DNA of 36,732 nucleotides from a virus. Location: positions 1 to 36,732 of the IMG/VR virus record IMGVR_UViG_3300007234_000035. One strand, written 5' to 3'. The notes under the pieces were generated by a model, which worked only from the letters and a program-made list of their open reading frames with translations, was not told the DNA's origin and searched no databases. Positions within the stretch are counted from its first letter, which is position 1. Each line of letters starts with the position of its first letter. This document shows positions 17,280-36,732 of the stretch, in pieces. The translations under genes were made by a program, and so were the position numbers.

Positions 17280-17307
17280 TTGCCTTTTTCTGTGGATTTG
17301 ATATAAT
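17280..17307 (+). promoter_or_regulatory. sigma70-like promoter TTGCCT-N16-TATAAT
   Basis: TTGCCT (17280-17285, within ATGCTTGCC) and TATAAT (17302-17307). A small hairpin GTTGTA-TTTT-TACAAC lies at 17249-17264 upstream, as before the promoter at 15774. Drives the GP88-like gene at 17341, which has a normal leader and AAGGA site. Confidence 0.75.
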
Positions 17308-17340
17308 CCTTCCATAGAGAGTTGAGAAGGAAACAAGATT

Positions 17341-18090: not shown

Positions 18091-18094
18091 TATA

Positions 18095-18319: not shown

Positions 18320-18320
18320 G

Positions 18321-18491: not shown

Positions 18492-18492
18492 C

Positions 18493-18729
18493 ATGAATTT
18501 AAAATATTATCGTTCACCTATTCAAGAAATGTCTTTCTATAAAAATATTCCAATGACTAAATGTAACAAACAGTCATTGGATGTGATTAGACGGATTTTG
18601 GACTTTCCAATCCGAATCCGCTATCGTGGGCCTCGACCATTTGATGGGAGAAGTTCACTAAATCGGCAATCCACTTGTCTCAAAAAGTATGCTACAAGCT
18701 TTGCCGTTTATGCTGACTATTCTCGGTAA
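18493..18729 (+). CDS. small basic conserved phage protein
   Basis: A 78-residue basic protein. The C-terminal half (RIRYRGPRPFDGR, SSLNRQSTCLKKYATSFAVY) resembles a small phage protein family, the -R-Y-R-G-P-R-x5-R-S- block being the most recognisable part. It may bind nucleic acid. Starts one base after the preceding stop. Confidence 0.6.
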   Translation: MNLKYYRSPIQEMSFYKNIPMTKCNKQSLDVIRRILDFPIRIRYRGPRPFDGRSSLNRQSTCLKKYATSFAVYADYSR

Positions 18730-18744
18730 ACATAAAAAAAGTGC

Positions 18745-18773
18745 TTGCCAAATGGTCTTGTTTGTGTTAGAAT
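18745..18773 (+). promoter_or_regulatory. sigma70-like promoter TTGCCA-N17-TAGAAT
   Basis: TTGCCA (18745-18750, within GTGCTTGCC) and TAGAAT (18768-18773) preceded by TTGTGT. Fits the GCTTG(A/C)C promoter series of this region. Drives the gene at 18806. Confidence 0.65.
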
Positions 18774-18805
18774 TATGTCCTCTAAATTAATTAAGGAGTT
18801 TTATT

Positions 18806-19231
18806 ATGGCTCGTGGTAAATCTACGAAACTGAAACCTTTCGAAAAGCTGTTGACCGTTATGGTCTCTGGCAAACCGGTGACGCTTGAAGAAATTGAAGC
18901 AACACTCGGCAACGAAATTCATATGTATCGAATTTCAACCTATATTTGGCATATTAAAACATTTGCCAATGGCGTTGTAAAGGCTATCAAAGATGGCCGA
19001 AAAGTTACTGCTTATCAGGTCACAAATGTTGACAAGATTAAGGAGTATTTCCGTATTACTGGTATTGACCCTAGCAAATTTGTTCCTGGTCAAGCCGACA
19101 AGATTGTTCGTGCTAAGAAAAAAGTTGTTTCTAGCAAAGTGAATAAACTTGTAGATTTGAAGGCGAAGCCTCAACAAAAAAATGTTGTTGAAACCGAGGA
19201 CATTGAAGTCGTTGAGGTTACTGAGCAATAG
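18806..19231 (+). CDS. possible winged-helix DNA-binding protein
   Basis: A 141-residue protein with strong ribosome site AAGGAG. Residues 10-65 (FEKLLTVMVSGKPVTLEEIE, then ISTYIWHIKTFANGVVKAIK) read like a winged helix-turn-helix seen in phage regulators, followed by a basic linker (RAKKKVVSSKVNKLVDLK) and an acidic tail. GC-rich codons compared with the surrounding genes and its own promoter suggest strong expression. The structured RNA candidate follows directly, probably on the same transcript. Confidence 0.65.
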   Translation: MARGKSTKLKPFEKLLTVMVSGKPVTLEEIEATLGNEIHMYRISTYIWHIKTFANGVVKAIKDGRKVTAYQVTNVDKIKEYFRITGIDPSKFVPGQADKIVRAKKKVVSSKVNKLVDLKAKPQQKNVVETEDIEVVEVTEQ

Positions 19232-19235
19232 ACGT

Positions 19236-19408
19236 TCCGCTTTGTTAGCGGATACTATGACCCGTAGGATGAGAAGTGGGGTGACTCCCAAGGGTGGTTC
19301 CAGTCTTACCAAACTGGCGCTGGCAATGCGAGAACGGTCCCTGTCGGGGAGCGGGTGGAAGGAGCGTATGCTCTATAATTACCGCCGGGGGACGCAGAGC
19401 ATTTTTTT
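19236..19408 (+). ncRNA. candidate structured RNA, GC-rich, ends in a terminator
   Basis: A 170-base segment between two genes with about 57% GC over 19261-19380, far above the rest of this region. It contains several hairpins: TCCGCT-TTGTT-AGCGGA (19236-19252), CCAGT..ACTGG (19300-19317), a GGTCCC-TGT-CGGGGA type stem near 19336-19351, and a terminator at its end. Short open frames cross it but lack good ribosome sites and resemble nothing. It may be a small regulatory RNA or a 3' UTR-derived RNA of the gene at 18806. It does not match tRNA, tmRNA, SRP or RNase P motifs I can check by eye. Confidence 0.55.
19368..19408 (+). terminator. terminator ending the structured RNA
   Basis: ATGCTCT (19368-19374) pairs with AGAGCAT (19396-19402), a 7-bp stem with a 21-base GC-rich loop that can itself fold, then a run of six T. 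Followed 12 bases later by the MazG start. Confidence 0.65.
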
Positions 19409-22572: not shown

Positions 22573-23238
22573 ATGAATTTTTGTCATGTTAAATTGGATG
22601 AGTTGAATTTCGAAATGGAATCAGAAACCACGGAAAGGGGTAGAGTCTATAAAGTTCCAGGAGGAGGACTCTACCCTTCTATCACAACAGTATTATCATC
22701 ATACAATAAAAAAGCTCTGATGGAATGGCGCAAAAGAGTTGGTGAAGAAGAAGCTAATCGTGTAGCTAAAGCTGCATCTGGTCGTGGAACCAGATTACAC
22801 AATACGGTTGAGAAATATCTCCTTAATGAGTTGACTGACGTTAAAATAAAAACTATGATGCCTGACATTAAGGAAATGTTTTTCGATATGCGTAAAATCA
22901 TTGATGAGAATATTGGTGATATTTATGGTATTGAACAACCACTTTATTCCCACAAATTAAGACTCGCAGGCCGTTGTGATTGTATTGCGGAATGGAATGG
23001 ACAGTTATCAATCGTGGACTGGAAGACCGCAAGTAGAGCCAAAGACAAAGAACATATAAAGAACTATTTTATGCAGGCTACGGCTTATGCAGAAATGTTT
23101 GAAGAACTGACCGGAAAGGCAATAGACACAATTGTTGTGGCGATAGCTGTGCAAAGTGAATCTCCGCAGGTGTTCATTGAGAGTAAGTATAAATACCTTC
23201 TCCCTTTAAATGAATATAACGAAAGGTACCAGAGATGA
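22573..23238 (+). CDS. RecB-type PD-(D/E)XK nuclease
   Basis: A 221-residue nuclease. GLYPSITTVLSSYNKKAL is the N-terminal family block, GRGTRLHNTVEKYL gives a metal-site His76/Glu80, LAGRCDCIAEW (131-141) supplies Asp136, and LSIVDWKTA (145-153) the Asp149-x-Lys151 catalytic pair. The late QATAYAEMFEEL helix with Q completes the RecB-family signature. Phage members process DNA ends in recombination or degrade host DNA. ATG 22573 follows eight bases after the preceding stop. ATGA overlap with the next gene. Confidence 0.85.
   Translation: MNFCHVKLDELNFEMESETTERGRVYKVPGGGLYPSITTVLSSYNKKALMEWRKRVGEEEANRVAKAASGRGTRLHNTVEKYLLNELTDVKIKTMMPDIKEMFFDMRKIIDENIGDIYGIEQPLYSHKLRLAGRCDCIAEWNGQLSIVDWKTASRAKDKEHIKNYFMQATAYAEMFEELTGKAIDTIVVAIAVQSESPQVFIESKYKYLLPLNEYNERYQR
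23188..23195 (+). promoter_or_regulatory. perfect T4-type late promoter box TATAAATA
   Basis: An exact TATAAATA followed by C, inside the end of the nuclease gene and 39 bases upstream of the ATG at 23235. Identical in form to the box at 30744. In T4, gp55-containing polymerase reads this element. Confidence 0.65.
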
Positions 23239-23600: not shown

Positions 23601-23910
<310 letters not shown>

Positions 23911-23911
23911 G

Positions 23912-23947
23912 GGGAGGTTTTGACTTGGCAACAGAATAAAACTTCCC
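23912..23947 (+). terminator. hairpin closing the tmRNA transcript
   Basis: GGGAGGTTTT (23912-23921) pairs with AAAACTTCCC (23938-23947), ten pairs with one G-U, 16-base loop, then TTTATAATT. The T-run is imperfect, so it may be a terminator, the last tmRNA pseudoknot stem, or both. Confidence 0.5.
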
Positions 23948-23956
23948 TTTATAATT

Positions 23957-24547
23957 ATGTACTCAATATTAGAAGATTGTAGTCCTTACTACATTAAATT
24001 TAGATATGATAATTTAGAAAATGATTTGGCTCTGATCAAATCATATATTCCAGACACATCTAAATTTACTCGTGGATTTACACATCACGCATTACCAGAG
24101 AGTGATGGCGAACGAATCCTTAGTGCTCTTCCTATGTCACAATCATTACGATTGAGAAAAGAAAGAGTATCATTCTTCATTACAAAACCTGGATATTATT
24201 ACCGCGCACATAAAGACGGTCTTAATACTCGTATCAGCATTAATTATATGTTACGCGTTGAAGATACCGATTGTCTTACAAGTTGGTATCCAGACAATAT
24301 TGCTGGGTTATATAATATGGATTATGAAGGTGGGCACTCTAGGGAACTCGTTGATTTTGATCCTAGAACTCACGAACCATTAAAAAGATTAAACTTTAAA
24401 CAAGACGAATTAGTATTATTCAACACAGAGATATACCACGATTTTGATAATAGTAAATCTAATAATGAAAGAATCGTTTTAACTCTTAGATCATATGAAT
24501 ATGATACGTTATATTTTGATAAAGCAAGAAAAAGGCTTTTTGGGTGA
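23957..24547 (+). CDS. Fe(II)/2-oxoglutarate oxygenase-like protein (island gene 1)
   Basis: A 196-residue double-stranded beta-helix protein resembling aspartyl/asparaginyl hydroxylases. SFFITKPGYYYRAHKDGLNT gives the iron ligands His85 and Asp87; ELVLFNTEIYHDFDNS gives the distal His161; ERIVLTLR supplies the 2-oxoglutarate-binding Arg172. First gene of the metabolic island, with no Shine-Dalgarno before ATG, just after the tmRNA hairpin. Overlaps the GNAT gene by four bases. Substrate unknown. Confidence 0.7.
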   Translation: MYSILEDCSPYYIKFRYDNLENDLALIKSYIPDTSKFTRGFTHHALPESDGERILSALPMSQSLRLRKERVSFFITKPGYYYRAHKDGLNTRISINYMLRVEDTDCLTSWYPDNIAGLYNMDYEGGHSRELVDFDPRTHEPLKRLNFKQDELVLFNTEIYHDFDNSKSNNERIVLTLRSYEYDTLYFDKARKRLFG

Positions 24548-25053
24548 TTACGCATAAAATACGAGACGATTCAAATGAATACGTTATGGACTTATTAGCC
24601 GATGGGTTAATGGATACTGCTGAAGTAAATTATAATCCTCTTTATGAAAATTTATCCCAAAACTTATTTAAAAAAATAAGATCAGGGATCTTTAAAAATA
24701 GTTCCTATATCGTATTGGAAGATGACAATGGTTATGTTGGTAGTTCTGGGTGGTATGAGTATGATGAAAATACAGCAATAGTATTTGTTAGAACATATTT
24801 AAGAAAAGATATGAGACAAAAACATTTATTGTCTAAATATTTCTTGCCTGAATTCTTTAGTCTTAAATATAAAAAATTATGGATTACAGTAAACGAACAC
24901 AATAAAGCACTTGTTAATGGATTTACACGTGTTGGTAAAAGTAAAGGTTCATCCGTTGGCTTTAGTTGGAATAAAGAATATGCAAAATTCAAACCCATTG
25001 GGACTAAATATATAAATGGACTTGAACAATATATTATAGAATATGAAAAATGA
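24544..25053 (+). CDS. GNAT-family acyltransferase-like (island gene 2)
   Basis: A 169-residue protein with GTG start overlapping the upstream stop. The pattern YIVLEDDNGYVGSSGWYEY, then VFVRTYLRKDMRQKHLLSKY matches GNAT strands beta2-beta4 and the acetyl-CoA loop region, although the canonical Q/R-x-x-G-x-G/A is degenerate (RKDMRQKHL). ITVNEHNKALVNGFTRVG fits the C-terminal strand/helix. It likely transfers an acyl group to an amine; substrate unknown. Confidence 0.62.
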   Translation: MITHKIRDDSNEYVMDLLADGLMDTAEVNYNPLYENLSQNLFKKIRSGIFKNSSYIVLEDDNGYVGSSGWYEYDENTAIVFVRTYLRKDMRQKHLLSKYFLPEFFSLKYKKLWITVNEHNKALVNGFTRVGKSKGSSVGFSWNKEYAKFKPIGTKYINGLEQYIIEYEK

Positions 25054-25976
25054 ATTATACCCAAAATAACCACATCTATTACACAATTGGTAATAGAAAA
25101 TTTGGTTATAGAAATTCCTCAATAGAAAGATATAACGTACATGTTGGAAAGATAGATCCTGACATTTATCGCACGAGTTCTTTTAGACAGGAATTAAACA
25201 AAACTGCCGATTCAGTTTATAGGGAATATGGAAAAGATTTAGTCGTATTCTTTAGTGGGGGAACTGATAGCGAAATTGTTCTTCGTAATTTTATTGATAT
25301 AGGAATTAAACCCAAGGTAGCAATTATATCATTTAAGGATAAATCTAACTTCGAGGATGTTACATACGCATTAAATGTTACAAAAGAACTTGGTATTAAA
25401 CCAGATGTAATCACACATGACATGCAAGAGTTTTATTACTCTGGCAACGCAGAGGAATTTGCACAGGAAATTCACTGCACACAACTTGCGTATCTTAATG
25501 TTTATTATACAGCAAAGCAAATTGCCGCGCCAACCGTAATGGGCGGTGAGTTATTATTGCGAAAACACTTCACAACACCGTCTGAGTATTATTGGTATTA
25601 TGTACTTCGTGAAAACGAGGATTGTAGTGCAATGAGATTCTCAGAGAAGTATAAAATACCCATCGTTAATGAATGGTTCAGCTATACACCAGAGTTAATG
25701 ATGTATTACCTGGAGCATCCGATGATTCAAAAGCTTACACAAGAACAAAATCATAAATTGGCTTCTGTAAGCACAAAGAATCAAGTATTGAAGGAATTAT
25801 ATCCAGAGGTGAAATACAGAAAAAAGACACACGGTTTTGAGCATTTAATAGCATTTAATTACACAGCGTATACGAATTTGCGAAATAAGATGATACCAAG
25901 ATTTACTGGTGATATTGATGGTATTAAATTAACCGACATGATTGAATGGATAAAAAATGGAAATAGTAAAACTTAA
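25050..25976 (+). CDS. PP-loop ATP-pyrophosphatase-like enzyme (island gene 3)
   Basis: A 308-residue N-type ATPase. DLVVFFSGGTDSEIVLRNFI (63-82) is the S-G-G-x-D-S PP-loop that binds ATP and adenylates a substrate, as in asparagine synthetase and related amide- or thiolation-forming enzymes. No glutaminase domain is present. The second half carries APTVMGGELLLRKHF and EDCSAMRFSEKY. It is probably the activating enzyme of the pathway; ammonia or another amine could be supplied from elsewhere. ATGA overlap upstream, 20-base overlap downstream. Confidence 0.75.
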   Translation: MNYTQNNHIYYTIGNRKFGYRNSSIERYNVHVGKIDPDIYRTSSFRQELNKTADSVYREYGKDLVVFFSGGTDSEIVLRNFIDIGIKPKVAIISFKDKSNFEDVTYALNVTKELGIKPDVITHDMQEFYYSGNAEEFAQEIHCTQLAYLNVYYTAKQIAAPTVMGGELLLRKHFTTPSEYYWYYVLRENEDCSAMRFSEKYKIPIVNEWFSYTPELMMYYLEHPMIQKLTQEQNHKLASVSTKNQVLKELYPEVKYRKKTHGFEHLIAFNYTAYTNLRNKMIPRFTGDIDGIKLTDMIEWIKNGNSKT

Positions 25977-26514
25977 TTCATCACATGCGGATTTGGTTGA
26001 GCATTTATTCTTTGAGAATAATAAGTTTATGGAAGAAAAAACCCTGGATTATGAAACCAGATTTATTCACTATATGCAATTCTGTGAAACATATCTCAAA
26101 GATTTACCTAATCATCACGCGTATGGTATCATTAAAGATAATTTAGTAACTGCGTATATTTCTTTTTACGAAAGCGTGGAAGAACCAAGTTGGTATTGCA
26201 CGATGATTAGAAGTGATAGCGAAATAAAAATAAAACATTTATTGGACGCAGCAATAAAACATAATGAGGAAAAGAATAGATATAAATTTTATACCCTGAT
26301 GAACGCTCGACATAAAAACAATGAATACATGAGAAGATTTATCTTTAGTGATTGGGCTAAAGAACGATATGATTATTTCGATGAATACGTTGTAGAGAAA
26401 CATAATAAGTCGATTTTTAATCATCATTTTGAAATTCTTTTTAACCGTAGCCTTTTACCTGTTGATACCGTTGTGCGTTGTACATTTCTAAAAAAACAAT
26501 ATCGGATATTATGA
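25957..26514 (+). CDS. GNAT-like protein (island gene 4)
   Basis: A 185-residue protein. The N-terminal half (EIVKLNSSHADLVEHLFFEN, then HAYGIIKDNLVTAYISFYES) follows the GNAT order, but the acyl-CoA loop is not recognisable. The C-terminal half (ERYDYFDEYVVEKHNKSIFN, then VDTVVRCTFLKKQYR) is aromatic and basic and is a block I associate with phage proteins of this kind. It overlaps the PP-loop gene by 20 bases and the desaturase by four. Confidence 0.5.
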   Translation: MEIVKLNSSHADLVEHLFFENNKFMEEKTLDYETRFIHYMQFCETYLKDLPNHHAYGIIKDNLVTAYISFYESVEEPSWYCTMIRSDSEIKIKHLLDAAIKHNEEKNRYKFYTLMNARHKNNEYMRRFIFSDWAKERYDYFDEYVVEKHNKSIFNHHFEILFNRSLLPVDTVVRCTFLKKQYRIL

Positions 26515-27275
26515 AAAATATACCACTAAGTTTTTTTGTACATTTACCAGCAATTGTTTTTGGTCTAATTAGTCTTTTATCTTTTTGTATGGGGTTTGTG
26601 CCAATTGAATATCTTTGGTTAAGCTTTGCGATGTGGATTTTTATTTCCGGTCTTGGAATTGCTGTTGGTTATCATAGAGTTTTTAGCCATAAAACACATA
26701 CGTTACCGGTATGGAAAGAGAACATTATTCTTTTCTTTGCTATATTTGCCGCACAAGGTTCTAGTATTTTTTGGGCAGCAGTTCACCGTGGCATACATCA
26801 TCGCCATACTGATACGGATAAAGATGTTCACAGTCCAAATACAAAAAGCTTTTGGGAATCATTTTTATTTTGGCATTATAGATTAAATAAAGAAAGTTTA
26901 AATCTTAAATACGCCGTAGATTTACTTAAAAAACCAAATCACGTTTGGTTTCACAAATACTATGTTCACATACTCTGGTTCGTTCCAATACTAGTAGCTT
27001 TATATAGTTTACCATTATCAATGGCGCTGTTTGGTTTACCGATGCTTTTTTGTAATTTACAGGATAACTTAGTTAATGTAATAGGTCATAAAAAGTGTTT
27101 AATCGGTTATCGTAACTTTAATACTACGGACAAAAGCTATAACAATCCTATTTTTGGATTTTTAACCTGGGGACAGGCCTGGCATAATAACCATCATCAC
27201 GATCCAAAAAAATTTAACTTTGGTGTAAAATGGTGGGAATTCGACCCATGCAGGATATTTCTATATGTACTATAA
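26511..27275 (+). CDS. membrane fatty-acid desaturase, stearoyl-CoA (delta-9) type
   Basis: A 254-residue membrane di-iron enzyme starting in an ATGA overlap at 26511. All three histidine boxes are present: GYHRVFSHKTH, VHRGIHHRHTD and WHNNHHHDP, in the order and spacing of acyl-CoA/acyl-lipid delta-9 desaturases. Several hydrophobic segments (about 9-28, 34-56, 75-90, 155-185) place it in the inner membrane. It should insert a double bond in a fatty acyl chain and needs an electron donor, which is not seen in the window. Somewhat shorter than bacterial homologues. Confidence 0.9.
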   Translation: MKNIPLSFFVHLPAIVFGLISLLSFCMGFVPIEYLWLSFAMWIFISGLGIAVGYHRVFSHKTHTLPVWKENIILFFAIFAAQGSSIFWAAVHRGIHHRHTDTDKDVHSPNTKSFWESFLFWHYRLNKESLNLKYAVDLLKKPNHVWFHKYYVHILWFVPILVALYSLPLSMALFGLPMLFCNLQDNLVNVIGHKKCLIGYRNFNTTDKSYNNPIFGFLTWGQAWHNNHHHDPKKFNFGVKWWEFDPCRIFLYVL

Positions 27276-27801
27276 ACAATTTGAAATATCAGCAAAAAGT
27301 GAAATATCTGAATTTGATATAGAATATTTTAAGGGTAATTTTCTTAGATCATACGGCGATAAAATATTTCATTACGATATTGCTGATTATGATTATTTAA
27401 ATTTATTTTTTCACCACTTAAAATTTAAACATAAACCTGATTTTATTTGGTATAATGAAATATACCCTACTAATTATTTGGGTGCTCATATTGATCATGG
27501 ACCAGAATGTTCTCTGAATTATTATATTCAGTGTGGGGAGGCAGTGACTTCGTTCTATGAAGTTATTAATAACAACCCAATAAAAGCACAGTGTACCGCA
27601 CCAATTAATACTAATAATCTATATTTTGAAGAAGATTTATTATTAGTAGATTCTTTTAAAGCACGAGATAATACCTCATTTTTACTTAACGTATCCAAAG
27701 TTCACAGTGTAAAAAATATACAAACAACTCGTAAATTTATATCATGGAGTTGGAAAGATATAACATTTAACGAAATAGCTGAAGGCATATACACCATTTA
27801 A
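27265..27801 (+). CDS. Fe(II)/2-oxoglutarate oxygenase-like protein (island gene 6)
   Basis: A 178-residue protein. YLGAHIDHGPECSLNYYIQC supplies His75 and Asp77; SFLLNVSKVHSVKNIQTTRK supplies the distal His147 and basic Arg156. Between them a beta-helix of suitable length. N-terminal helical extension (about 45 residues) of unknown role. It overlaps the desaturase by 11 bases; together they could hydroxylate and desaturate a shared acyl substrate. Confidence 0.62.
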   Translation: MYYKQFEISAKSEISEFDIEYFKGNFLRSYGDKIFHYDIADYDYLNLFFHHLKFKHKPDFIWYNEIYPTNYLGAHIDHGPECSLNYYIQCGEAVTSFYEVINNNPIKAQCTAPINTNNLYFEEDLLLVDSFKARDNTSFLLNVSKVHSVKNIQTTRKFISWSWKDITFNEIAEGIYTI

Positions 27802-27803
27802 AA

Positions 27804-28406
27804 ATGAAAATATTAAATCAAATAGAAAATATATGCTATAACATTCCAATTCAATGTAATATTGATATTGCGCTTCTTGATTTGGATAATTTATTTTATC
27901 AACTAGGTATTACAGAAGATTACATTGAAAAAAATAGAACGATAAATTTATCTCATTTACCAGAATTAAAAAATGAAGATAGATGGAAAAAATATTCCGG
28001 TAATCATTTCACTGTCTCTAATGATAATAAGAGAGAAGGTGATTTTGTAAAATTTCTTGATGAATTAACCGGATCATATCTAAAGGAAATCATAGATAAA
28101 ATTTATGATTATCATTTAAAAAAATTCGACGCTCCCTTTGCCGGCAGAGCTCAATTAATCACTCTACCACCTGGCGTGTGTTATACATTGCATAGAGATT
28201 TGCACACAAAACATCGATATCATATACCATTAAAGACACACAAGGATATAGTTTGGATGTTTAAAAATGATAATGAAGATCCAAAGTTACTGCATATGCC
28301 TGCCGATGGTAATATCTGGTATCTAGATCCAATTACCATCAAACACACTGTGATGAATATGTCACCAATTCACAGATGGCATATCCTATTGACGAGTGAA
28401 AAATGA
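27804..28406 (+). CDS. aspartyl/asparaginyl-hydroxylase-like oxygenase (island gene 7)
   Basis: A 200-residue protein. ITLPPGVCYTLHRDLHTKHR gives His130-Arg-Asp132 as iron ligands; WYLDPITIKHTVMNMSP gives His181; HRWHILL gives Arg191. The block PPGVCYTLHRD is typical of the Asp/Asn beta-hydroxylase group of 2-oxoglutarate enzymes. No Shine-Dalgarno; ATGA overlap with the TauD-like gene. Confidence 0.7.
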   Translation: MKILNQIENICYNIPIQCNIDIALLDLDNLFYQLGITEDYIEKNRTINLSHLPELKNEDRWKKYSGNHFTVSNDNKREGDFVKFLDELTGSYLKEIIDKIYDYHLKKFDAPFAGRAQLITLPPGVCYTLHRDLHTKHRYHIPLKTHKDIVWMFKNDNEDPKLLHMPADGNIWYLDPITIKHTVMNMSPIHRWHILLTSEK

Positions 28407-29248
28407 ATATAGAAAACATAAGAGAAAAATGGGGGACAAGTATTCGTGCATCATATGACGAGATAATTGATGCCGGGCCTGTGTTTTGGAAAGAACTAGG
28501 TTATAAAAGAAGTTTTATATTATTTAAAGATCTGGGTAGATTACCACCAATACAATACTATAACATAATAAGTCTTTTTGGTCGGCCTTGGTCTAAAGAG
28601 GAATATTTCTATTCACAAGAAGGTGGTTATAATATTGAGCCTGGTAAAGCGTTATCAATATTTAGCAATATTATTTCACCCAGACTAGGTGAAAATCCAA
28701 TGCCCTGGCACTCGGACATACCTAATCATGGCGAAGGATCATTTCCGTGGCGATCGCTGTATTTAACTAAAAATCCAAATCCAAAAGCCGGTCTAACTAC
28801 CTGGTTAAATTTAGAATTGGATATTATAGAACCTGACGAGGATGATTTTAATCTTTATTCAAATATAGAAATATTAAATCAAAGTTGGTATCGTAAGGAT
28901 GAGGAAATAAATCTACAATCTTTTATAAAAACACATCCTATTACCGGTAAAAAATCTTTAAGGGCTAATTATTTTGTGCACGGCAATAACATCGATGATA
29001 AACCGTGGATAAAAGAAACGTATTTAAAGGGTGTGAAAATTGAACCCTATGAATTACTTGGGCCAATATATAAAAAACTTTCAATAAGAGAAGATCTCAC
29101 CTATACACATACTTGGGATTTATATGATTTAATTATCTATGATAATTGGAATTTTGTACACCGTCGATCTCATTTACAATTAAAAAGTGGTGAAGAAAGA
29201 TCATTTCTTAGAGCAAATATAGCACATGATACCAGTACGAATACTTGA
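28403..29248 (+). CDS. TauD/TfdA-family dioxygenase (island gene 8)
   Basis: A 281-residue enzyme of the taurine-dioxygenase type. MPWHSDIPNHGEGSFPWRSL supplies His103 and Asp105; the C-terminal IIYDNWNFVHRRSHL supplies His253, followed by Arg267/Arg270 for 2-oxoglutarate. The D-N-x-x-x-x-H-R arrangement is the TauD signature. This family is used for sulfonate/phenoxy cleavage and, in natural-product pathways, for side-chain hydroxylation. Overlaps the next oxygenase gene by 23 bases. Confidence 0.78.
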   Translation: MNIENIREKWGTSIRASYDEIIDAGPVFWKELGYKRSFILFKDLGRLPPIQYYNIISLFGRPWSKEEYFYSQEGGYNIEPGKALSIFSNIISPRLGENPMPWHSDIPNHGEGSFPWRSLYLTKNPNPKAGLTTWLNLELDIIEPDEDDFNLYSNIEILNQSWYRKDEEINLQSFIKTHPITGKKSLRANYFVHGNNIDDKPWIKETYLKGVKIEPYELLGPIYKKLSIREDLTYTHTWDLYDLIIYDNWNFVHRRSHLQLKSGEERSFLRANIAHDTSTNT

Positions 29249-29801
29249 TAAAATACCTACTGATATTTTTACTCATTGTAAAGATGAAATAAAAAATATC
29301 AATTGGGATTCAGTACAGGATTTAAGAAAAACAAATTCTGTATTTTCAACAAGTACAGCAATTCATCTTAGAGTACATGATGCACCAGACGGCACACCTC
29401 ACACAGTTAAGGATATGTCACAATATGTTGAGTGTAGAGATACTGCTTTTAGAAAAGAATTTCCCAACACAAACACTCTTATAGAATGTGTATATAATAT
29501 GGTAACCGGTTGTAAACTTGGTCGTATAATGATTGTAAAACTATTACCTGGTGGGGAAATAACAGAACACATTGACCCAGGTAAATATTTTCAATCATAC
29601 CATAGATTCCATGTTCCAATCATTACAAATAGTGATGTGAAATTTTTTGGACCCAATGGTACAAATGCTACACATATGCCAATTGGATTTTTATCTCAAC
29701 TTAATAATAGACAATTACACTCAGCAAGTAATAAAGGCGCTGATTATAGAGTTCACATTATAGTTGATATTAACTCTGCAGATAAAAAATACAATTTTTA
29801 A
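29226..29801 (+). CDS. aspartyl/asparaginyl-hydroxylase-like oxygenase (island gene 9)
   Basis: A 191-residue protein. IMIVKLLPGGEITEHIDPGK gives His115 and Asp117, QSYHRFHVPIITN the following strand, RQLHSASNKGADYRVHIIV the distal His165 and Arg175. This complete H-x-D...H...R set identifies the Asp/Asn beta-hydroxylase-type fold. Its stop overlaps that of the convergent minus-strand gene by four bases. Confidence 0.75.
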   Translation: MIPVRILDKIPTDIFTHCKDEIKNINWDSVQDLRKTNSVFSTSTAIHLRVHDAPDGTPHTVKDMSQYVECRDTAFRKEFPNTNTLIECVYNMVTGCKLGRIMIVKLLPGGEITEHIDPGKYFQSYHRFHVPIITNSDVKFFGPNGTNATHMPIGFLSQLNNRQLHSASNKGADYRVHIIVDINSADKKYNF

Positions 29802-30733
29802 GTCATAATAGGATATTCAATATCATACTTTTTGCAATGTGTTATAGTTGCTTCAATATATTCATCTGTTCTATCTATCTTATCTTCAAAAAATTGAGAG
29901 GAAATAAATTTATAATTATTTAATGGAACTTGATGTATATTATGACCATTAAATCCACCCCAATACGGAAGATGTTCGTCACAAAAATAATTCAAATAAT
30001 TATCAGTAAAAAGATTCCAGTCTATTAAATCTTTCCAATATTTTAGTTCTGGATATTCTTCAATTAGATTAAAATGTGGTTCTGGAAATTCAAGCCAAAC
30101 ATACTTATTTTCTCTGTGTTTACTGGCAAAATAACCTTTACCCCCTAATAGATGAATTTCTCTATATAATTCAAAATCCCAAGGACACATATGAATTTGA
30201 CGATAACATCGATCTTTTAAAAAATTTTGAGCAAATACTATAGCTTCATAACATTTTTTTAAATGATATGGTTCACTATAACATGTTTCATAATAATTTC
30301 TTTTTACAGTAGGATATGCTGGTCCGGTAGAATAAAATCTAAAACCAGAATCTACAACATTTCCGTCTAATCCATATGTTCGATAAAAAGATAATTCGTT
30401 TTGAACATGTGGCGGCAGTTTTTCTTTTTCAGGGAATTGAATGTCTTTATTATGTTTAGTGCTATCAAAATGAAGGTCTATTCTATCCACTGGGGCCCAA
30501 TGAATTATTACAGTCGTTTCTTTATCAATGTAATTTTGATTTGTAAGTAAAGCATTAATAGGCCATTCATTTCCGGTGCCATTAATGCCTAATGATTTTA
30601 CTTCACACTGCGTTATATTTTGAATTATATCTTGAAAGGAATGGTCGTCAAGTTTATTTTCGTCCCCATATATTCTTCCGTTTAAATAGCTAGGATTAAA
30701 AAAACTACCACCAATTAAAATTACTTTTTTCAT
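29798..30733 (-). CDS. SGNH-hydrolase-like protein
   Basis: A 311-residue protein. The N-terminus MKKVILIGGSFFNPSYLNGR resembles the G-x-S block I of SGNH/GDSL hydrolases, and a late DEHLPYWGGFNGHNIHQVPL resembles the catalytic Asp-x-x-His region; the central SLGINGTGNEWPI is block-II/III-like. SGNH enzymes hydrolyse or transfer ester-linked acyl groups. The catalytic triad is not certain. It is the first minus-strand gene and has its own late-type box on the minus strand (30758-30765). Confidence 0.5.
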   Translation of the reverse strand: MKKVILIGGSFFNPSYLNGRIYGDENKLDDHSFQDIIQNITQCEVKSLGINGTGNEWPINALLTNQNYIDKETTVIIHWAPVDRIDLHFDSTKHNKDIQFPEKEKLPPHVQNELSFYRTYGLDGNVVDSGFRFYSTGPAYPTVKRNYYETCYSEPYHLKKCYEAIVFAQNFLKDRCYRQIHMCPWDFELYREIHLLGGKGYFASKHRENKYVWLEFPEPHFNLIEEYPELKYWKDLIDWNLFTDNYLNYFCDEHLPYWGGFNGHNIHQVPLNNYKFISSQFFEDKIDRTDEYIEATITHCKKYDIEYPIMT

Positions 30734-30743
30734 ATTTAAAGTT

Positions 30744-30751
30744 TATAAATA
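30744..30751 (+). promoter_or_regulatory. perfect late promoter box TATAAATA
   Basis: Exact TATAAATA followed by C, 34 bases upstream of the ATG at 30786, in a 52-base divergent intergenic space. Same form as the box at 23188. Confidence 0.65.
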
Positions 30752-30757
30752 CATATC

Positions 30758-30765
30758 TATTTACA
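30758..30765 (-). promoter_or_regulatory. late promoter-like box TGTAAATA (minus strand)
   Basis: Read on the minus strand, TTGTAAATAGATATG lies 24 bases upstream of the SGNH-like gene. One mismatch to TATAAATA. With the plus-strand box it makes a divergent late promoter pair. Confidence 0.4.
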
Positions 30766-30785
30766 AATAATGAAAGGCTATCCAA

Positions 30786-31025
30786 ATGAAAAACAAGATT
30801 AACCATTTAGAAGATCACACAATGACTTACTGGGAACATTGGAAGCACGGCATGAAGCTTTCAGTTCGACTTTCTAAAATGGTTTTTAAAAGTACTGTCC
30901 ATGCATTTTTTCCCAATACTTTTGCAGAAGATGGTCCAATTGAAGTCTATAATATCTATAATGAAATTAAAGATTTACCAAATGTAGAAAGACTTTATAA
31001 AAATCTTTCTGCGTCAAATAGATAA
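30786..31025 (+). CDS. DUF6356-like small protein
   Basis: A 79-residue protein with ribosome site GAAAGG and its own TATAAATA box. MTYWEHWKHGMKLSVRLSKM then VFKSTVHAFFPNTFAEDGP matches my memory of DUF6356 (H-x-x-x-x-x-x-x-x-Y-x-x-H, then H-A-x-x-P-x-x-F), a small bacterial/phage family of unknown function with a membrane-proximal amphipathic helix. Its 3' end overlaps the convergent minus-strand gene by 12 bases. Confidence 0.62.
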   Translation: MKNKINHLEDHTMTYWEHWKHGMKLSVRLSKMVFKSTVHAFFPNTFAEDGPIEVYNIYNEIKDLPNVERLYKNLSASNR

Positions 31026-32246
31026 ATTAAAATTTAATTCTTTTGCATCTGGGATATATAAATTTTTATTATCTTTCATAAATGAAGTTTCATGTCCTAT
31101 TGATCTAGGGTATATGTGAACTTTAAGACTATTTGATAAAGGGTTTATATATTTTGGGTGTATTAGATTTTTAATTGAATTAATATCTGATTTGATCATT
31201 TCAGCTAATTTTGTTTGCCCATGCAAATTAAAAAACCAGGAATCGTGTGCTAATTCAGTAAAATTTCTAAAAGATTTAAAAGTTTGAAATGGGTTTCTTC
31301 CTTCTAACATAGGATATACAATGGGTATATTAGCTCTATGAAACATAGAAAATCTTATTTCGTTTTGATTCCATTTATCACCACCTCGCACATCAGCCAT
31401 TAATGATTTAATTTTTAAATTTTCAGGCGAATACAACCATCGGGCCAAGACATGTGACTGTTTAATCATGATCTCAGGCATATCTGGTGTTAAATAAAAA
31501 TATACAGTTTCTAAATTAGGATATTCTTCTGAGCTTGATTTTTGTATTCCAACTTGACACGAGACGTCTATTATGGAATTATAAATTTCACCTTTTTCAT
31601 TTCTAATTAGAAATGGTTTATCTGCTCCAAATATTTTTGCAATTTTCTTTCCAGATTCTGCTAAATTTTTAATATGGGAATATCTTTCAAAACTATATCT
31701 AGAAACAGTTGCATGTATCCAATGGCCACCATGAAGCATCCAATCCCCATCTTTATAAGAAATCATATCCTCAAAAAAATCATGGATTGTTACTTTAACA
31801 TTAGGCCACTTTGTTTTTATTTCATCCGCTAAAGGCAATAAGGCGTATTTTGTTTCACTAATTAAATTACTACTACTAAGGTCTGTATTGCTCCAATTAA
31901 AGTTTTTAAGACCACTTAGAGGTGCTCCCATAAATACTTCGTCTAAATGAATACCATTTTTTAAAAATGAATATATTATATTGGTACTATCAGCACCACC
32001 CGAAGCCATTACTATAATATAATCATATTCTTCTCTTAATTGTTTTGCTCTTTTAAGATATAAATCATTTAAACTTGTGTCTGGTTCTACAGTCCAGTCA
32101 TATGAATCTAGTATTTCATTATTAAAATACCAATCAATATCTGATAATCTTTGTTGGGCGTGTAATACTGCATCTAGTTTTCCGTAAAATTTATTACCAT
32201 TTACAGTATAATAGCCTAATTTATCATTAGGTAATTCAATTTTCAC
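31014..32246 (-). CDS. second PP-loop ATP-pyrophosphatase-like enzyme
   Basis: A 410-residue protein with GTG start and ribosome site AAGGAAT. YDYIIVMASGGADSTNIIYS (75-94) contains the S-G-G-x-D-S PP-loop. The remainder has no glutaminase or tRNA-binding domain that I recognise; LHGGHWIHATVSRYSF and ARWLYSPENLKIK are notable blocks. It is not a close copy of the enzyme at 25050 apart from the PP-loop, so the two probably activate different carboxylates or act in sequence. Confidence 0.7.
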   Translation of the reverse strand: MKIELPNDKLGYYTVNGNKFYGKLDAVLHAQQRLSDIDWYFNNEILDSYDWTVEPDTSLNDLYLKRAKQLREEYDYIIVMASGGADSTNIIYSFLKNGIHLDEVFMGAPLSGLKNFNWSNTDLSSSNLISETKYALLPLADEIKTKWPNVKVTIHDFFEDMISYKDGDWMLHGGHWIHATVSRYSFERYSHIKNLAESGKKIAKIFGADKPFLIRNEKGEIYNSIIDVSCQVGIQKSSSEEYPNLETVYFYLTPDMPEIMIKQSHVLARWLYSPENLKIKSLMADVRGGDKWNQNEIRFSMFHRANIPIVYPMLEGRNPFQTFKSFRNFTELAHDSWFFNLHGQTKLAEMIKSDINSIKNLIHPKYINPLSNSLKVHIYPRSIGHETSFMKDNKNLYIPDAKELNFNLSI

Positions 32247-32256
32247 TTTTATTCCT

Positions 32257-33213
32257 TTATTTGGCTCTAGATATGTTTATTTTTGAGAATGCCCTCTTTT
32301 TTCTATATTTAAAATATCCAATAGGATCATCAATTAAAAAATCATCCTGACGATTGTAATAATCTTCTAATGATTCTTCTAAAAAAATTTCCTCAGCTGA
32401 TGTTAATTTTCTATTTAATGTATCGCTATATGCTTTTTTAAATATATTAGAATTATTCTCAGGTAAATGACTAAATGGAAGTAACGCATCAGAATTTTCA
32501 TTAATAAGTTTTGGATAATTAATTTTTGATTTTTTAAAATTTAAATATTTTAAATTTGGTGGTTCTTCATCTATTATCTTAAAAAGATCAATTAAATTTG
32601 CATAAACCAATAAAATTCTGACACTTATATAGAAAAATAGATCATTATACTCATCACTCATTCTATTTTTAAATATTTCTTCAGCATCAATATCATCACC
32701 TAAAATTTCTTTAAGTTGCAATCCTAAATGATATGATAATCTATGTTTGAACCATTCCCAAAGATCTAAAGAAATAGGAATATTTTTTTCATCAGCCAAA
32801 AACACCTTATTAACTTGCATTAATATGCTCATTAATTTTTCTTCTGGTGTATATGTAGTAATTGATAGAATTCTACAATTTGGGAAATGTTTTTTATATG
32901 ATGGTAGGTTTGTAAAATCGTGTGTCCAAGTTATGATTCTTTTTGGTTCTGTGTATTCTTTTTTAATTTGTTCTATATAATACTTTTCTTTTTCTTCAAT
33001 TGAAGAAAAATGTTCATTTTCTTCAGCAACAGTACCAAATGCTATACTATCTTTATTTTCTCTCTTACCACTATCCAATATGTGATAACTACCATATTTG
33101 TTAATTGGTAAATGAGTTAGGTCACCATTCACTATTTTTTTCATTACTGCGGTTACAAAGTTTCCACCTGAACCTTGAGCAAACGCAACAAAAACATGAT
33201 CTAAATTAAACAT
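32257..33213 (-). CDS. P-loop/sulfotransferase-like protein
   Basis: A 318-residue protein. The N-terminus DHVFVAFAQGSGGNFVTAVM resembles the 5' PAPS/phosphate loop of sulfotransferases (hydrophobic strand, then G-S-G-x-N/x), followed by an alpha/beta domain (RIITWTHDFTNLPSYKKHFP, then CRILSITTYTPEE). The C-terminal 100 residues are helical and charged. Sulfotransferase assignment is tentative. Its start overlaps the upstream minus-strand stop (TAATG), so the two are coupled. Confidence 0.45.
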   Translation of the reverse strand: MFNLDHVFVAFAQGSGGNFVTAVMKKIVNGDLTHLPINKYGSYHILDSGKRENKDSIAFGTVAEENEHFSSIEEKEKYYIEQIKKEYTEPKRIITWTHDFTNLPSYKKHFPNCRILSITTYTPEEKLMSILMQVNKVFLADEKNIPISLDLWEWFKHRLSYHLGLQLKEILGDDIDAEEIFKNRMSDEYNDLFFYISVRILLVYANLIDLFKIIDEEPPNLKYLNFKKSKINYPKLINENSDALLPFSHLPENNSNIFKKAYSDTLNRKLTSAEEIFLEESLEDYYNRQDDFLIDDPIGYFKYRKKRAFSKINISRAK

Positions 33214-33521
33214 TATGGTGTTTCTTCTTCAAACCCCGTTGTGTATGTAATATTATTTTCTTGCATATAAGCATGGCACTTATTGATTAGATTGTTAACA
33301 ACTACAGGATCACTCATAAAATTATCTAGTGCTTCTTTACTTGCCCATACTGTAGTTTTTGTTAGTGTTAAACCATCTTCGCTTATTGTGGTTTCTGAAT
33401 CAAGAACATTATGTTGATGATTTTGGCCAATGTGAACAAAGGTTTCTGCCGCTATGCCTTGGTTTGTCCAAAATGCAACTGATACAGAAGGTCTCGTTTG
33501 GGTTTTTGTTATGGTATGCAT
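33213..33521 (-). CDS. small dimeric alpha/beta-barrel-like protein
   Basis: A 102-residue protein with ribosome site AAGGAGC and a minus-strand late-type box 32 bases upstream. MHTITKTQTRPSVSVAFWTN, then LTKTTVWASKEALDNFMSD, has the strand-helix-strand layout of small ferredoxin-like dimeric barrels (the ABM/monooxygenase superfamily), but no active-site residue is evident. Next to a P450 gene, it could be an accessory oxygenase or cyclase-like protein. Confidence 0.45.
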   Translation of the reverse strand: MHTITKTQTRPSVSVAFWTNQGIAAETFVHIGQNHQHNVLDSETTISEDGLTLTKTTVWASKEALDNFMSDPVVVNNLINKCHAYMQENNITYTTGFEEETP

Positions 33522-33542
33522 GTTACTATTAGCTCCTTATTG

Positions 33543-34700
33543 CTAAATATTACTATTTATTCTTCTAATAAAGATTTTATCAATAACATCATTATTACCA
33601 CTTGCTGTTACGATATAATCAAAATCTTTTGTCACAACTTCATAATTACCTATAATATCAAGAAATGGTGTGAGGAAAGCACCAAGTGCCGACTTTGCAA
33701 TTGCTTGTCCTGCACACGCATGTGGTCCCGCACCAAAAGGTGTGCTCTTTGCCAAGTTTTCACGATGCATGTTAAATGTGTTCGGATCCGGAAATACTTT
33801 CGGATCCCTCATTGCCGCATCCAAACAAACACCCACAACATCATCAGGTTTTAAATCAATGCCATTGAGTGTCATTGGCTCAGTTACCGTTCTTCTAAAC
33901 TTACCCGTTGTTGCAGTAAATCTTAAATCCTCGTCAAGAGCTTTTGATTCAAGTTCTCTATTTGCTAATAGTTCGGGTAACACACCTTCATTTGCCAGGT
34001 TGATAACCAAGAATTGTAATGCACTGATTAGAGAATAACACCCAGAGATTGCTGGACCAATGAATAGTGAGAGTGATGTGTCCTTATCACGTTTCTGCAT
34101 AAACTCTTGGTATATTCCATCACCCTCGTGTATTACTTTTCTACTTACGAGATCACGTATAATAGCAACTAGTTCATCATAATCAGTGTTATCGTGATTG
34201 TGCAAAACTGTCCAACTGGAATATAATTGGATTGCTACAAGTAATTCAGCAATATAATTTTTATTAAAAGGTAGATTCAAAGTCTCTGCAATCATATGAG
34301 CGGCGATTGTTCTTACGATGTCAGAGATTTCTATTTCATCAGAGTCTTTTTCTAACTCAAGCAATTCAATTGTCTTATTTCTAACAACTTCATTAATCGC
34401 GTCAATACGTGATTTACTGTAAGCGTCCTTAACAATTGAACGCATATGATCGTGTGCTTTTCCATCACTTGCGCCAGGTGTGCGACCAAAGCGTTCAGGT
34501 ACTTCTTTAATTAAATTACCTTTACCTGAAATAAACTTAGCGGGATTTGTGAGTATATATCGCACATCGTCGTAGTTAACGTAGATGTACATTTTATATT
34601 TTTCAGACCAATACGCAGTATTAAGGTTTCTGATCTTTTCATAATAATCGTATCTATTTCGCAACCATTCTTTGTCAAATGGATCATAAAGTTCAGTCAT
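33543..34700 (-). CDS. cytochrome P450
   Basis: A 385-residue bacterial-type P450 from ATG 34700 (GGAAT upstream), preferred over 34727. TPFGAGPHACAGQAIAKSAL holds the F-G-x-G-x-H-x-C-x-G heme loop with Cys329; EDLRFTA is the E-x-x-R motif; the KFRRTVTEPMTLNGIDLKPD beta region and AAMRDPKVFPDPNTF meander are typical of class I P450s. The I-helix segment (FIGPAISGCYSLISALQF) lacks the usual acid-alcohol pair, which may alter oxygen activation. No ferredoxin or reductase gene is seen, so host redox partners would be needed. A phage-borne P450 is rare. Confidence 0.92.
   Translation of the reverse strand: MTELYDPFDKEWLRNRYDYYEKIRNLNTAYWSEKYKMYIYVNYDDVRYILTNPAKFISGKGNLIKEVPERFGRTPGASDGKAHDHMRSIVKDAYSKSRIDAINEVVRNKTIELLELEKDSDEIEISDIVRTIAAHMIAETLNLPFNKNYIAELLVAIQLYSSWTVLHNHDNTDYDELVAIIRDLVSRKVIHEGDGIYQEFMQKRDKDTSLSLFIGPAISGCYSLISALQFLVINLANEGVLPELLANRELESKALDEDLRFTATTGKFRRTVTEPMTLNGIDLKPDDVVGVCLDAAMRDPKVFPDPNTFNMHRENLAKSTPFGAGPHACAGQAIAKSALGAFLTPFLDIIGNYEVVTKDFDYIVTASGNNDVIDKIFIRRINSNI
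33554..33561 (-). promoter_or_regulatory. late promoter-like box AATAAATA (minus strand)
   Basis: On the minus strand, GAATAAATAG lies 32 bases upstream of the start at 33521 and inside the 3' end of the P450 gene. Same sequence as 1911-1920. Confidence 0.4.
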
Positions 34701-34750
34701 TTTAATTCCATAAATTAGCTTATACATAATATATATCCACGGAGAATGCG

Positions 34751-35257
34751 ATGGAAATTAGTAATTATTTTGAACATGTATGGCAACCAAACACCGATAA
34801 GTACAAATACTCTGGTTGGCAATTATTAAGAATAGATCCAACTAAAAAAATACTTGATGTTGGCTGTGGTTACAATCCGTTTAAAGAGTTTTTTAAAGAT
34901 AATTTATTAGGTATTGATCCATATAATGACGCGGCAGATATTAGAATAAGCATTGAGGATTTTGAAACCGAAGAGTTATTTGATGTTGCATTTTGTTTGG
35001 GATCAATAAACTTTGGTAATGAGGATGTTATCTTAAAACAAATCGAAAAGGTTGTATCGCTCATTAAACCGGGTGGTATGATTTATTGGAGACAAAATCC
35101 TGGTTTGCAAGATCATAATAATGAAGAGTGTAAGTCCATAGACTTTTTTGATTGGTCATTTGAAAAAAATTTAGATTATGCCAAACGCTTTGGGTGTCAC
35201 GTCCATATGTTGGTTTGGGATACTGATAATAGAATATATTCGGAATGGAAGCGTTAA
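34751..35257 (+). CDS. SAM-dependent methyltransferase
   Basis: A 168-residue class I methyltransferase. TKKILDVGCGYNPFKEFF is motif I (G-x-G-x-N), LLGIDPYNDAADIR carries the acidic SAM-ribose-binding residue, ELFDVAFCLGSINFGNED is motif IV and VSLIKPGGMIYWRQNP motif V/VI. Short relative to typical 230-280-residue enzymes, so the acceptor lid is reduced. Ribosome site CGGAG. Divergent from the P450 gene across a 50-base gap; overlaps the transporter gene by 13 bases. Confidence 0.82.
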   Translation: MEISNYFEHVWQPNTDKYKYSGWQLLRIDPTKKILDVGCGYNPFKEFFKDNLLGIDPYNDAADIRISIEDFETEELFDVAFCLGSINFGNEDVILKQIEKVVSLIKPGGMIYWRQNPGLQDHNNEECKSIDFFDWSFEKNLDYAKRFGCHVHMLVWDTDNRIYSEWKR

Positions 35258-36678
35258 TACTCATAATTGGAATACTTTACGGTTTTATATTTGGCGTAAT
35301 TCCTGTAGCAGGTGCAACAACTGCACTTATTACAATTTATGGTTTTATAAGCTATTTTTATTCCGACCCCTACTTATTGGTAATATTTACTACTGCGGTG
35401 GTGGTGTCATCATCTATTGGTGATAGTTTCTCCAGTATAATGATGAACATACCTGGTGCTGGTGGAAGCGCGGCAACGATGATTGATGGATTCCCTATGG
35501 CAAAGCGGGGTGAAGGCGCGCGGGCATTATCTGCAGCAATTACAACATCAACGGTAAATGGATTAGTCTGGGGTGCATTAGTATTTTTTCTCTTACCGTA
35601 TTATTCCTCCATAGTATTGAGTTTTGGCATACCAGAGATGTTGTGTTTTTTATTATTAGCATTTGTATCCATAGTGTTTATTACAAATCAATATTGGATA
35701 AGGGGTCTTATCGCTCTTTGTTTTGGTTTATTTTTAGGCCTCGTTGGGCAAGATCCACTTACCGGCGCGGCACGTTATACATTGGGTTGGAATTATTTAG
35801 AAGATGGAATCCAACTCGCGCCACTTATGGCAGGTATTTTTGCTTTCCCAGAATTGTATGAATCATATAAATCATCCTGGGTTGTTAATGAAACAAAAAA
35901 TAAATGGCAACAGATAATTACGGGCGTTAAGGATAGTTGGACCCATAAATGGGATGGTTTACGCGGCGGTGTGATTGGTGCAGTAATTGGTGCAGTACCG
36001 GGAATTGGTGGTAATATCGCCGATTGGTTGGCGTATGGGCAAACGATTGCATTAAATAAAAATGAAGAATTCGGCAACGGTAATGTAAAAGGCATCATCG
36101 GCTGTGAAGGTGCTAACAATGCACAAAAGGCCACATCATATGTGCCGACAATATTATTTGGAATTCCCGGCGCACCATTTGAAGTTATCATAATTAGTCT
36201 CTTCGCCGTAGTAGGGTTAGAACTAGGCACACCAGAGCTTTTGTTAAATGCTCAGTTTATAAATTCGATTACATCAAGTTATATGGTGTCAATTTTTCTT
36301 AGTTTCTTCCTTGCAATATTCTTTATCCGTTACGCAACGAATATAACTAAGATACCATTTAAATATTATTTTTGGTCCATTATGGCTTTATTACTTTGGG
36401 CTTCGGTCCAATATACTGGTCTTTGGATGGATTATGTGTTTTTCTTTTTAATGTGCGCGTTAGGTTTAATTATGAAAAAATTAAAATTAAGCAGAGCAGC
36501 ACTGGTTATTGGATTCATATTAGCAAGTAAGTTGGAATCTATATTTTTACAATTTACTACGTTATATACATATGATATCATCATTATGAGACCGATAGCA
36601 CTATTGCTTTTTGTTTTGATAGTGATTGGTATTGTTTATGGCATATTTTTTAATAAATCTAGGATTAATTATGTTTAG
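35245..36678 (+). CDS. TctA-family tricarboxylate transporter membrane subunit
   Basis: A 477-residue polytopic membrane protein of usual TctA length. IFGVIPVAGATTALITIYGF, then FSSIMMNIPGAGGSAATMID (about 63-82) with GFPMAKRGEGARALSAA, and the second copy GAVPGIGGNIADWLAYGQTI and LFGIPGAPFEVI are the paired TctA signature loops. With TctB and a periplasmic TctC it imports di/tricarboxylates or related acids using ion gradients. No TctB-like ORF precedes it; the next gene starts at 36671 and may be the binding protein. Unusual cargo for a phage. Confidence 0.9.
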   Translation: MEALILIIGILYGFIFGVIPVAGATTALITIYGFISYFYSDPYLLVIFTTAVVVSSSIGDSFSSIMMNIPGAGGSAATMIDGFPMAKRGEGARALSAAITTSTVNGLVWGALVFFLLPYYSSIVLSFGIPEMLCFLLLAFVSIVFITNQYWIRGLIALCFGLFLGLVGQDPLTGAARYTLGWNYLEDGIQLAPLMAGIFAFPELYESYKSSWVVNETKNKWQQIITGVKDSWTHKWDGLRGGVIGAVIGAVPGIGGNIADWLAYGQTIALNKNEEFGNGNVKGIIGCEGANNAQKATSYVPTILFGIPGAPFEVIIISLFAVVGLELGTPELLLNAQFINSITSSYMVSIFLSFFLAIFFIRYATNITKIPFKYYFWSIMALLLWASVQYTGLWMDYVFFFLMCALGLIMKKLKLSRAALVIGFILASKLESIFLQFTTLYTYDIIIMRPIALLLFVLIVIGIVYGIFFNKSRINYV

Positions 36679-36732
36679 GAAATTATTGTTCTTAACTTTA
36701 TTTGTTACATCAGTAGCGCGAGCCGACTATAC
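36671..36732 (+). CDS. start of an exported protein, cut by window end
   Basis: ATG 36671 overlaps the TctA stop by eight bases. The 20 visible codons form a signal peptide (MFRKLLFLTLFVTSVARA|DY). Its place directly after TctA and its signal sequence suggest a TctC-type periplasmic binding protein, but too little is visible to call the family. Confidence 0.55.
   Translation, partial: MFRKLLFLTLFVTSVARADY

Follow-up and report, generated by a model that had tools for sequence, protein, structure and literature searches.

The 36,732-base window analyzed here, which is the whole of IMG/VR virus record IMGVR_UViG_3300007234_000035, raises the question of whether the block of enzyme genes filling its right-hand part belongs to the phage and, if so, whether the enzymes form a pathway. 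The initial annotation, made from the letters alone, had read at least 15 enzyme genes in a row, some on the minus strand, as a possibly undescribed, apparent phage-borne pathway. That observation is confirmed, with 17 open reading frames (ORFs) packing positions 23957-36678 at a coding density of 0.99, and its interpretation is partly supported. The first nine ORFs all lie on the plus strand, most of them overlapping at their ends, and the later ones are on mixed strands. We consider it probable that the block represents cargo of a large aquatic phage, a cassette situated directly behind the phage's own permuted transfer-messenger RNA (tmRNA) gene, conserved and mainly viral, and acting on acyl chains in one pathway. 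The core consists of a GNAT, a PP-loop ATPase, a GNAT-like protein, a membrane desaturase, and PF05118/TauD oxygenases, with a second PP-loop protein often present; it is co-inherited and mainly viral. Positions 1-23,600 are phage, with profile matches to a head maturation protease, an endolysin, exonucleases, and a DNA-binding protein, as well as six tRNA genes. The closest sibling, here called G001, is IMGVR_UViG_3300025889_000073 (171,728 bp with 259-bp terminal repeats). Pfam and other profile searches, motif inspection, and a PDB search provided the basis for the following gene calls, in which i1 to i17 denote the island ORFs.

22573-23238, plus strand: phage exonuclease (phrog_298), the upstream anchor; the tmRNA comes next in the clade (profile and synteny).
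23603-23949, plus strand: permuted (beta-type) tmRNA gene (ARAGORN; Rfam RF04321, 126.5 bits; RF01850, 96.4 bits).
23799-23949, plus strand: divergent 3' half of the tmRNA, beginning where identity to G001 breaks (23799), with an extended 3' stem and no terminator.
23957-24547, plus strand: i1, 2-oxoglutarate/Fe(II) oxygenase-like, HKD motif; a homologue adjoins the cassette in contig L260.
24544-25053, plus strand: i2, GNAT-like acyltransferase, called through a homologue.
25050-25976, plus strand: i3 (PP1), PP-loop N-type ATP pyrophosphatase, SGGTDS motif, the hallmark of the cassette.
25957-26514, plus strand: i4, GNAT-like protein of ~200 residues with a putative fold, between PP1 and the desaturase.
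26478-27275, plus strand: i5, membrane fatty-acid desaturase (Pfam, 1e-16), all three His boxes intact.
27265-27801, plus strand: i6, 2-oxoglutarate oxygenase-like, HID motif.
27804-28406, plus strand: i7, 2-oxoglutarate oxygenase, HxD motif, related to i9 (1e-5).
28403-29248, plus strand: i8, TauD/TfdA-family 2-oxoglutarate oxygenase (Pfam TauD, 2e-9), 51% identical to its homologue in contig L262.
29226-29801, plus strand: i9, Asp_Arg_Hydrox (PF05118) 2-oxoglutarate oxygenase (Pfam, 1e-11).
29798-30733, minus strand: i10, no assigned family.
30786-31025, plus strand: i11, DUF6356 protein (Pfam, 8e-8).
31014-32246, minus strand: i12 (PP2), second PP-loop protein, SGGADS motif.
32257-33213, minus strand: i13, no assigned family.
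33213-33521, minus strand: i14, small protein whose homologues adjoin PP2.
33543-34727, minus strand: i15, cytochrome P450 (Pfam, 1e-22), closest to the CypX/cyclodipeptide-associated type, haem Cys present.
34751-35257, plus strand: i16, methyltransferase-like, weak match below the cut-off.
35245-36678, plus strand: i17, TctA-family membrane subunit of a tripartite tricarboxylate transporter (Pfam, 2e-94).

Contigs with the same block were retrieved with an alignment of phage desaturases, and a PP1 alignment then yielded 90 relatives in IMG/VR, 80 of which were kept. Homologues of the desaturase were present in 73 of these 80 PP1 loci, followed by those of i4 (68), i2 (45), i9 (36), and i8 (33); homologues of PP2 (23), i7 (17), i1 (12), i6 (6), i14 (5), and i16 (1) were rarer. 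PP1, i4, and the desaturase, which span 25050-27275 in the window, were consecutive in 50 loci, and i2 and PP1 in 41. When PP1 was clustered at 70% identity, the i3-i4-i5 order was kept in 22 of 27 groups, and the i2-i3-i4-i5 block with its 2-oxoglutarate partners was retained across divergent viruses at 30-60% identity. A control set of 105 loci (1.2 Mb), chosen around the exonuclease gene within the clade of the window's phage, yielded only the desaturase, in four loci. The adjacency of the PP-loop, GNAT-like, and desaturase genes is thus more than chance, and gene-neighborhood comparison did not bear out a collection of unrelated cargo in random order. The recurrence of the core order in dozens of viral contigs looks like a real viral pathway and not an assembly accident. 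An apparent pathway, as opposed to a single auxiliary gene, had been claimed for the entire island; by recurrence the claim is supported for the core (i2-i5 with i1, i7-i9, and i12), but not for the P450/methyltransferase-like/TctA end, which no relative shows. Of the genes with cassette relatives, PP2 lies nearest to that end, with i14 just past it.

Two independent phage contigs carry the core directly behind a phage tmRNA, in agreement with the view that it is phage-borne. In L335 (3300044513_002437), the tmRNA is followed by i2 (65% identical), PP1 (57%), i4 (57%), the desaturase (61%), and then a ketoacyl synthase, with phage genes flanking the cassette on both sides. L262 (3300006802_013340) has many genes in common with G001; behind its tmRNA come a GNAT, desaturases, a Rieske protein, PP1, i4, a desaturase, TauD, and two PF05118 enzymes, and its cassette, like that of L335, includes a ketoacyl synthase. 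The L262 region around the tmRNA (2809-19394) holds six desaturases, the Rieske oxygenase, the ketoacyl synthase, and a PstS-like protein (by inspection). In L260, the i2 homologue is fused to a phosphopantetheine (acyl carrier protein, ACP) domain (PF00550, over the cut-off), and radical-SAM and Rieske proteins also occur in related cassettes. At least one homologue of a non-cassette G001 gene was found in 57 of 79 PP1 loci; among full records, G1369, G1375, and G1376 share many G001 genes and G1367 several. Because a Terminase_6N match was obtained in one of 13 records tested, the viral status of several cassette contigs rests on their IMG/VR classification and shared genes. Further PP-loop proteins (by motif) and one GARS-like ATP-grasp enzyme (Pfam, 1.8e-26) are encoded in related cassettes (L268, 12974-14047; L269, 12355-13266 and 14327-15598), which suggests a wider family of viral ligase clusters.

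No full-length relative of PP1 was found in 321 Gammaproteobacteria genomes, where only the core PP-loop was matched, and a single-sequence query with PP1 had no match in 197 Pelagibacterales; on this basis, PP1 appears to be a mainly viral family. Across the sampled Pelagibacterales, Alphaproteobacteria, and Gammaproteobacteria, searches with island proteins gave no more than two matches, both at chance level. The best PP2 match in these genomes was rejected as chance, the protein being a protease by inspection. Pattern scans with single proteins gave no match in viral contigs for PP1, PP2, and the P450 and none in genomes for TctA. The relatives were reached only by alignment-based searches, and the early impression of uniqueness left by the single-protein scans was misleading. 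BLAST against annotated phages returned no match for PP1, PP2, the P450, i1, i10, or i13; those for i9, TctA, and the desaturase were weak.

Most of the initial gene labels withstood closer inspection. The five predicted 2-oxoglutarate oxygenases comprise i8 and i9, over the Pfam cut-offs for TauD and Asp_Arg_Hydrox, and i1, i6, and i7, which have an HxD motif with later His/Arg residues. With 45 bits against a PF05118 cut-off of 22.6 and an HID motif at residue 115, i9 has an LpxO/OlsC-like domain and may act on a lipid. The two PP-loop enzymes, the desaturase, the P450, and the carboxylate transporter were upheld by the motifs and Pfam matches listed above; in the P450, FGAGPHACAG at 331 corresponds to FGxGxHxCxG and EDLR at 266 to ExxR. 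Of the two proposed GNAT-like proteins, i2 is supported through the sub-threshold Acetyltransf_7 match of a homologue (0.001), and i4 is not. The sulfotransferase-like and SGNH-like labels given to i13 and i10 are unproven, as neither had profile or PDB support, and the methyltransferase assignment of i16 is likewise unproven. With a profile of the PP1 family, matches to NH3-dependent NAD+ synthetase (1e-5), GMP synthetase, and TtuA were confined to the ATP-binding core. Neither TctB nor TctC was seen in the window, which ends 54 bases past the TctA gene, and a profile search of the window found no core chain-building enzyme of a polyketide synthase, fatty acid synthase, nonribosomal peptide synthetase, or ribosomally synthesized and modified peptide cluster. 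Structure predictions made without an alignment for two proteins had predicted local distance difference test scores of 37 and 38, too low for use.

The junction between phage backbone and cassette is the permuted tmRNA gene, which the initial annotation had overlooked. The covariance-model scores exceed the gathering thresholds, the order of the two halves is permuted, and a tag reading frame (codons at 23858-23890) encodes ANDERFALAA. Beta-type tmRNA genes are regular in this clade (66 of 105 contigs, mostly behind the exonuclease gene), with tags that include ANDERFALAA, ANDEKFALAA, and ANDERFLMAA, among others. The window is nearly identical to G001, with nine small difference sites, up to 23798, and divergence starts inside the tmRNA. 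On the basis of its structural and replication genes and of the 23.9 kb nearly identical to a near-complete relative, the backbone belongs to a large tailed phage of the G001 clade. It also holds a cysteine-dioxygenase-like PHROG match and two nucleotide-sugar-epimerase PHROG matches (5876-6232, 6229-6999, and 13573-14640). The identity of the junction is important, since integration often takes place at tmRNA genes and an assembly chimera could readily form at a conserved RNA.

The site behind the tmRNA is one of variable cargo. In 63 relatives with both a tmRNA and a recognizable downstream core gene, the two lay 0-3.0 kb apart, the widest gap being that of G001, and the insertion of at least 12.7 kb in the window is the longest seen. 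Phage genes bound the window cassette on the left, and the contig ends before any return on the right. G001 lacks the island and instead has AcpS-like (motif only), ACP-like (weak profile matches), desaturase, and ketoacyl synthase genes behind its tmRNA, a four-gene cassette at L001 11408-14081. L197, L198, and L200, in which a tmRNA was not detected, have at the equivalent position an AcpS-like/desaturase/ketoacyl synthase cassette with products 69-82% identical to those of G001. Elsewhere in G001, an isocitrate lyase gene (Pfam ICL, 1.8e-101; L042 6969-8201, record 26969-28201) is accompanied by thioredoxin-like and ribonucleotide-reductase-like genes, a second desaturase, and a PF05118 oxygenase.

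Regarding function, we infer a single pathway in which the enzymes work on acyl chains while the phage infects its host. Given the profile matches described above, PP1 is likely an adenylating, amide- or thio-forming enzyme. A chemistry of acyl chains bound to ACP is favored by the desaturase, the PF05118 domain, the ACP fusion in L260, and the ketoacyl synthase, AcpS-like, ACP-like, radical-SAM, and Rieske genes of related cassettes. In the order that we propose, acyl chains on ACP would be desaturated and hydroxylated, the GNAT would join the acyl chain to an amine, and the PP-loop enzyme would adenylate a carboxylate or carbonyl to give an amide-type bond. The outcome would be either a membrane lipid of the host in modified form or a small molecule bearing an acyl group, perhaps a secreted one. 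The P450/methyltransferase-like/TctA end, which is contiguous in the window but without counterpart elsewhere, is for that reason kept out of the conserved cassette and may be a lineage-specific add-on.

Several results weigh against this reading. The window itself has no ketoacyl synthase, ACP, or AcpS gene, and the ACP fusion of the i2 homologue was seen in one contig only. Neither i2 nor i4 matches Acetyltransf_5 or another Pfam family over the cut-off, and Acetyltransf_5, the family of OlsB, was not matched by their homologues either. The P450, TctA, DUF6356, i10, and i13 proteins had no homologue in any of the 80 PP1 loci. Variation in gene order and outer genes, together with the P450 and TctA unique to the window and the changeable cargo of 0-3 kb at this site, would be expected if unrelated auxiliary genes had simply gathered at a hot spot for cargo, with no single pathway behind them; this explanation is doubtful, in view of the conservation of i2-i3-i4-i5 and its 2-oxoglutarate partners across divergent viruses. 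Phages also use PP-loop and 2-oxoglutarate enzymes for base modification, and QueC and LarE were matched weakly by PP1, such that the enzymes might modify phage DNA or nucleotides, giving hypermodified bases, and not lipids. We regard this as quite unlikely: the constant neighbor of PP1 is a membrane fatty-acid desaturase, ketoacyl synthase, ACP, or AcpS-like genes occur in related cassettes, and PP1 aligns only over the generic ATP-binding core.

Other alternatives concern the assembly. Composition is unlike that of G001 (31.7 versus 35.0% GC), and the tetranucleotide correlation of 0.50 lies below the 0.58-0.83 among G001's own segments; this shift, which also counts against the preferred reading, is as expected for acquired DNA but equally for a foreign contig, and codon usage, at the edge of G001's own range, decides nothing. 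A G001-like contig might have been joined at the conserved tmRNA to a bacterial chromosome, or the junction might be an integration at ssrA, making the island cellular; near-identity to G001 does stop within a classic integration site (PMC11915505), and the P450 and TctA look cellular. Such a chimera is very unlikely because of the tmRNA comparison, the lack of a terminator, the linkage in L335 and L262, and a shared T-arm allele. When compared with the 3' half of the window's tmRNA, G001 scores 189 and other phages of the clade 137-150, while the best cellular permuted tmRNA reaches 100. The Burkholderiaceae permuted tmRNAs examined end in a terminator, whereas the window and G001 have in common an extended 3' stem that lacks a terminator and is followed immediately by the first ORF. 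The T-arm allele of the window, GGTGTCTTGG, is that of the cassette carriers L335 and L262 and differs from that of G001. With the island proteins also giving no more than chance-level matches in the sampled bacteria, a bacterial chimera is largely refuted for the left part of the island. An assembly switch between sibling phages at the tmRNA is unlikely; the cassette would then still belong to a phage, but to a relative of the G001-like one that supplied the left-hand backbone. Such a switch would account for the 11 difference sites over 23.9 kb being followed by wholly different gene content after 23799, and in L335 and L262 the upstream neighbors of the tmRNA are homologues of G001 43682/44340, not the exonuclease as in the window. 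Yet the intervening sequence (23648-23798), highly variable across the clade, is identical in the window and G001, which would require a very closely related partner, and homologous recombination at the tmRNA would give the same pattern.

Phage auxiliary genes are usually described singly, as borrowed from the host, and the cassette is unlike these in being a multi-gene enzymatic unit with its order conserved across divergent viral contigs. That conservation, with the absence of a full-length PP1 relative from the sampled bacteria, points to a chemistry maintained by the viruses themselves. It is possible, and we suggest tentatively, that aquatic phages share an undescribed, mainly virus-specific pathway in which a PP-loop ligase, GNATs, and a desaturase act on ACP-bound acyl chains, encoded by a mobile cassette able to sit directly behind the tmRNA and yielding a product, either a modified membrane lipid or an acylated signal, that is not known from cells. 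The four-gene core i2-i5 is small enough for direct testing, and the tmRNA site offers a handle for finding further such cassettes.

Among known systems, the PF05118-type hydroxylases LpxO (lipid A) and OlsC (ornithine lipid) act on bacterial acyl lipids, and GNAT-type acyltransferases such as OlsB (ornithine lipid) use acyl-ACP. The hydroxylase and GNAT types resemble those of the window, but i2 and i4 do not match the Acetyltransf_5 domain of OlsB and, to our knowledge, the OlsB/OlsC and LpxO pathways have no PP-loop enzyme. Phage desaturases and phage ACP/FabF genes are already known singly or in small sets (PMC8224337). Cyanophage lipid desaturases, presumed to alter host lipids (Roitman et al. 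2018, cited in PMC8224337 and PMC11480375), share PF00487 with the window; in the accounts of the citing articles, they are described as desaturase genes and not as a PP-loop/GNAT/desaturase/2-oxoglutarate oxygenase cassette. Roseobacter prophages carry fabG-acpP-fabF cassettes (PMC8224337), which resemble the related cassettes in uniting phage-borne ACP and ketoacyl synthase genes but differ in encoding standard FabG/FabF/ACP in temperate phages, with no PP-loop, GNAT, 2-oxoglutarate oxygenase, or desaturase gene. The 2-oxoglutarate/Fe(II) oxygenases are a common auxiliary category of marine phages, including pelagiphages, where they are reported alongside ferrochelatase and not in a cassette as here (PMC11561400). 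The initial claim that the island is possibly undescribed holds only within the open-access literature, where we found no description of a PP-loop/GNAT/desaturase cassette and which misses much of the published work. The closest published analogue is an annotated cluster in the cultured large Pelagibacter phage Mosig EXVC030M (MT647606, 49.7-70.3 kb), whose genome announcement does not discuss it. No homologues of PP1, i4, or PP2 were found in Mosig, its desaturase is only 30% identical, and its block, in which MoaA-like, carbamoyltransferase, aminotransferase, and nitroreductase genes lie beside the desaturase and TauD genes, adjoins tail fibers and not a tmRNA. Like the window, Mosig has a contiguous block annotated as Asp_Arg_Hydrox, FA_desaturase, TauD, N-acetyltransferase, methylase, and oxidoreductases.

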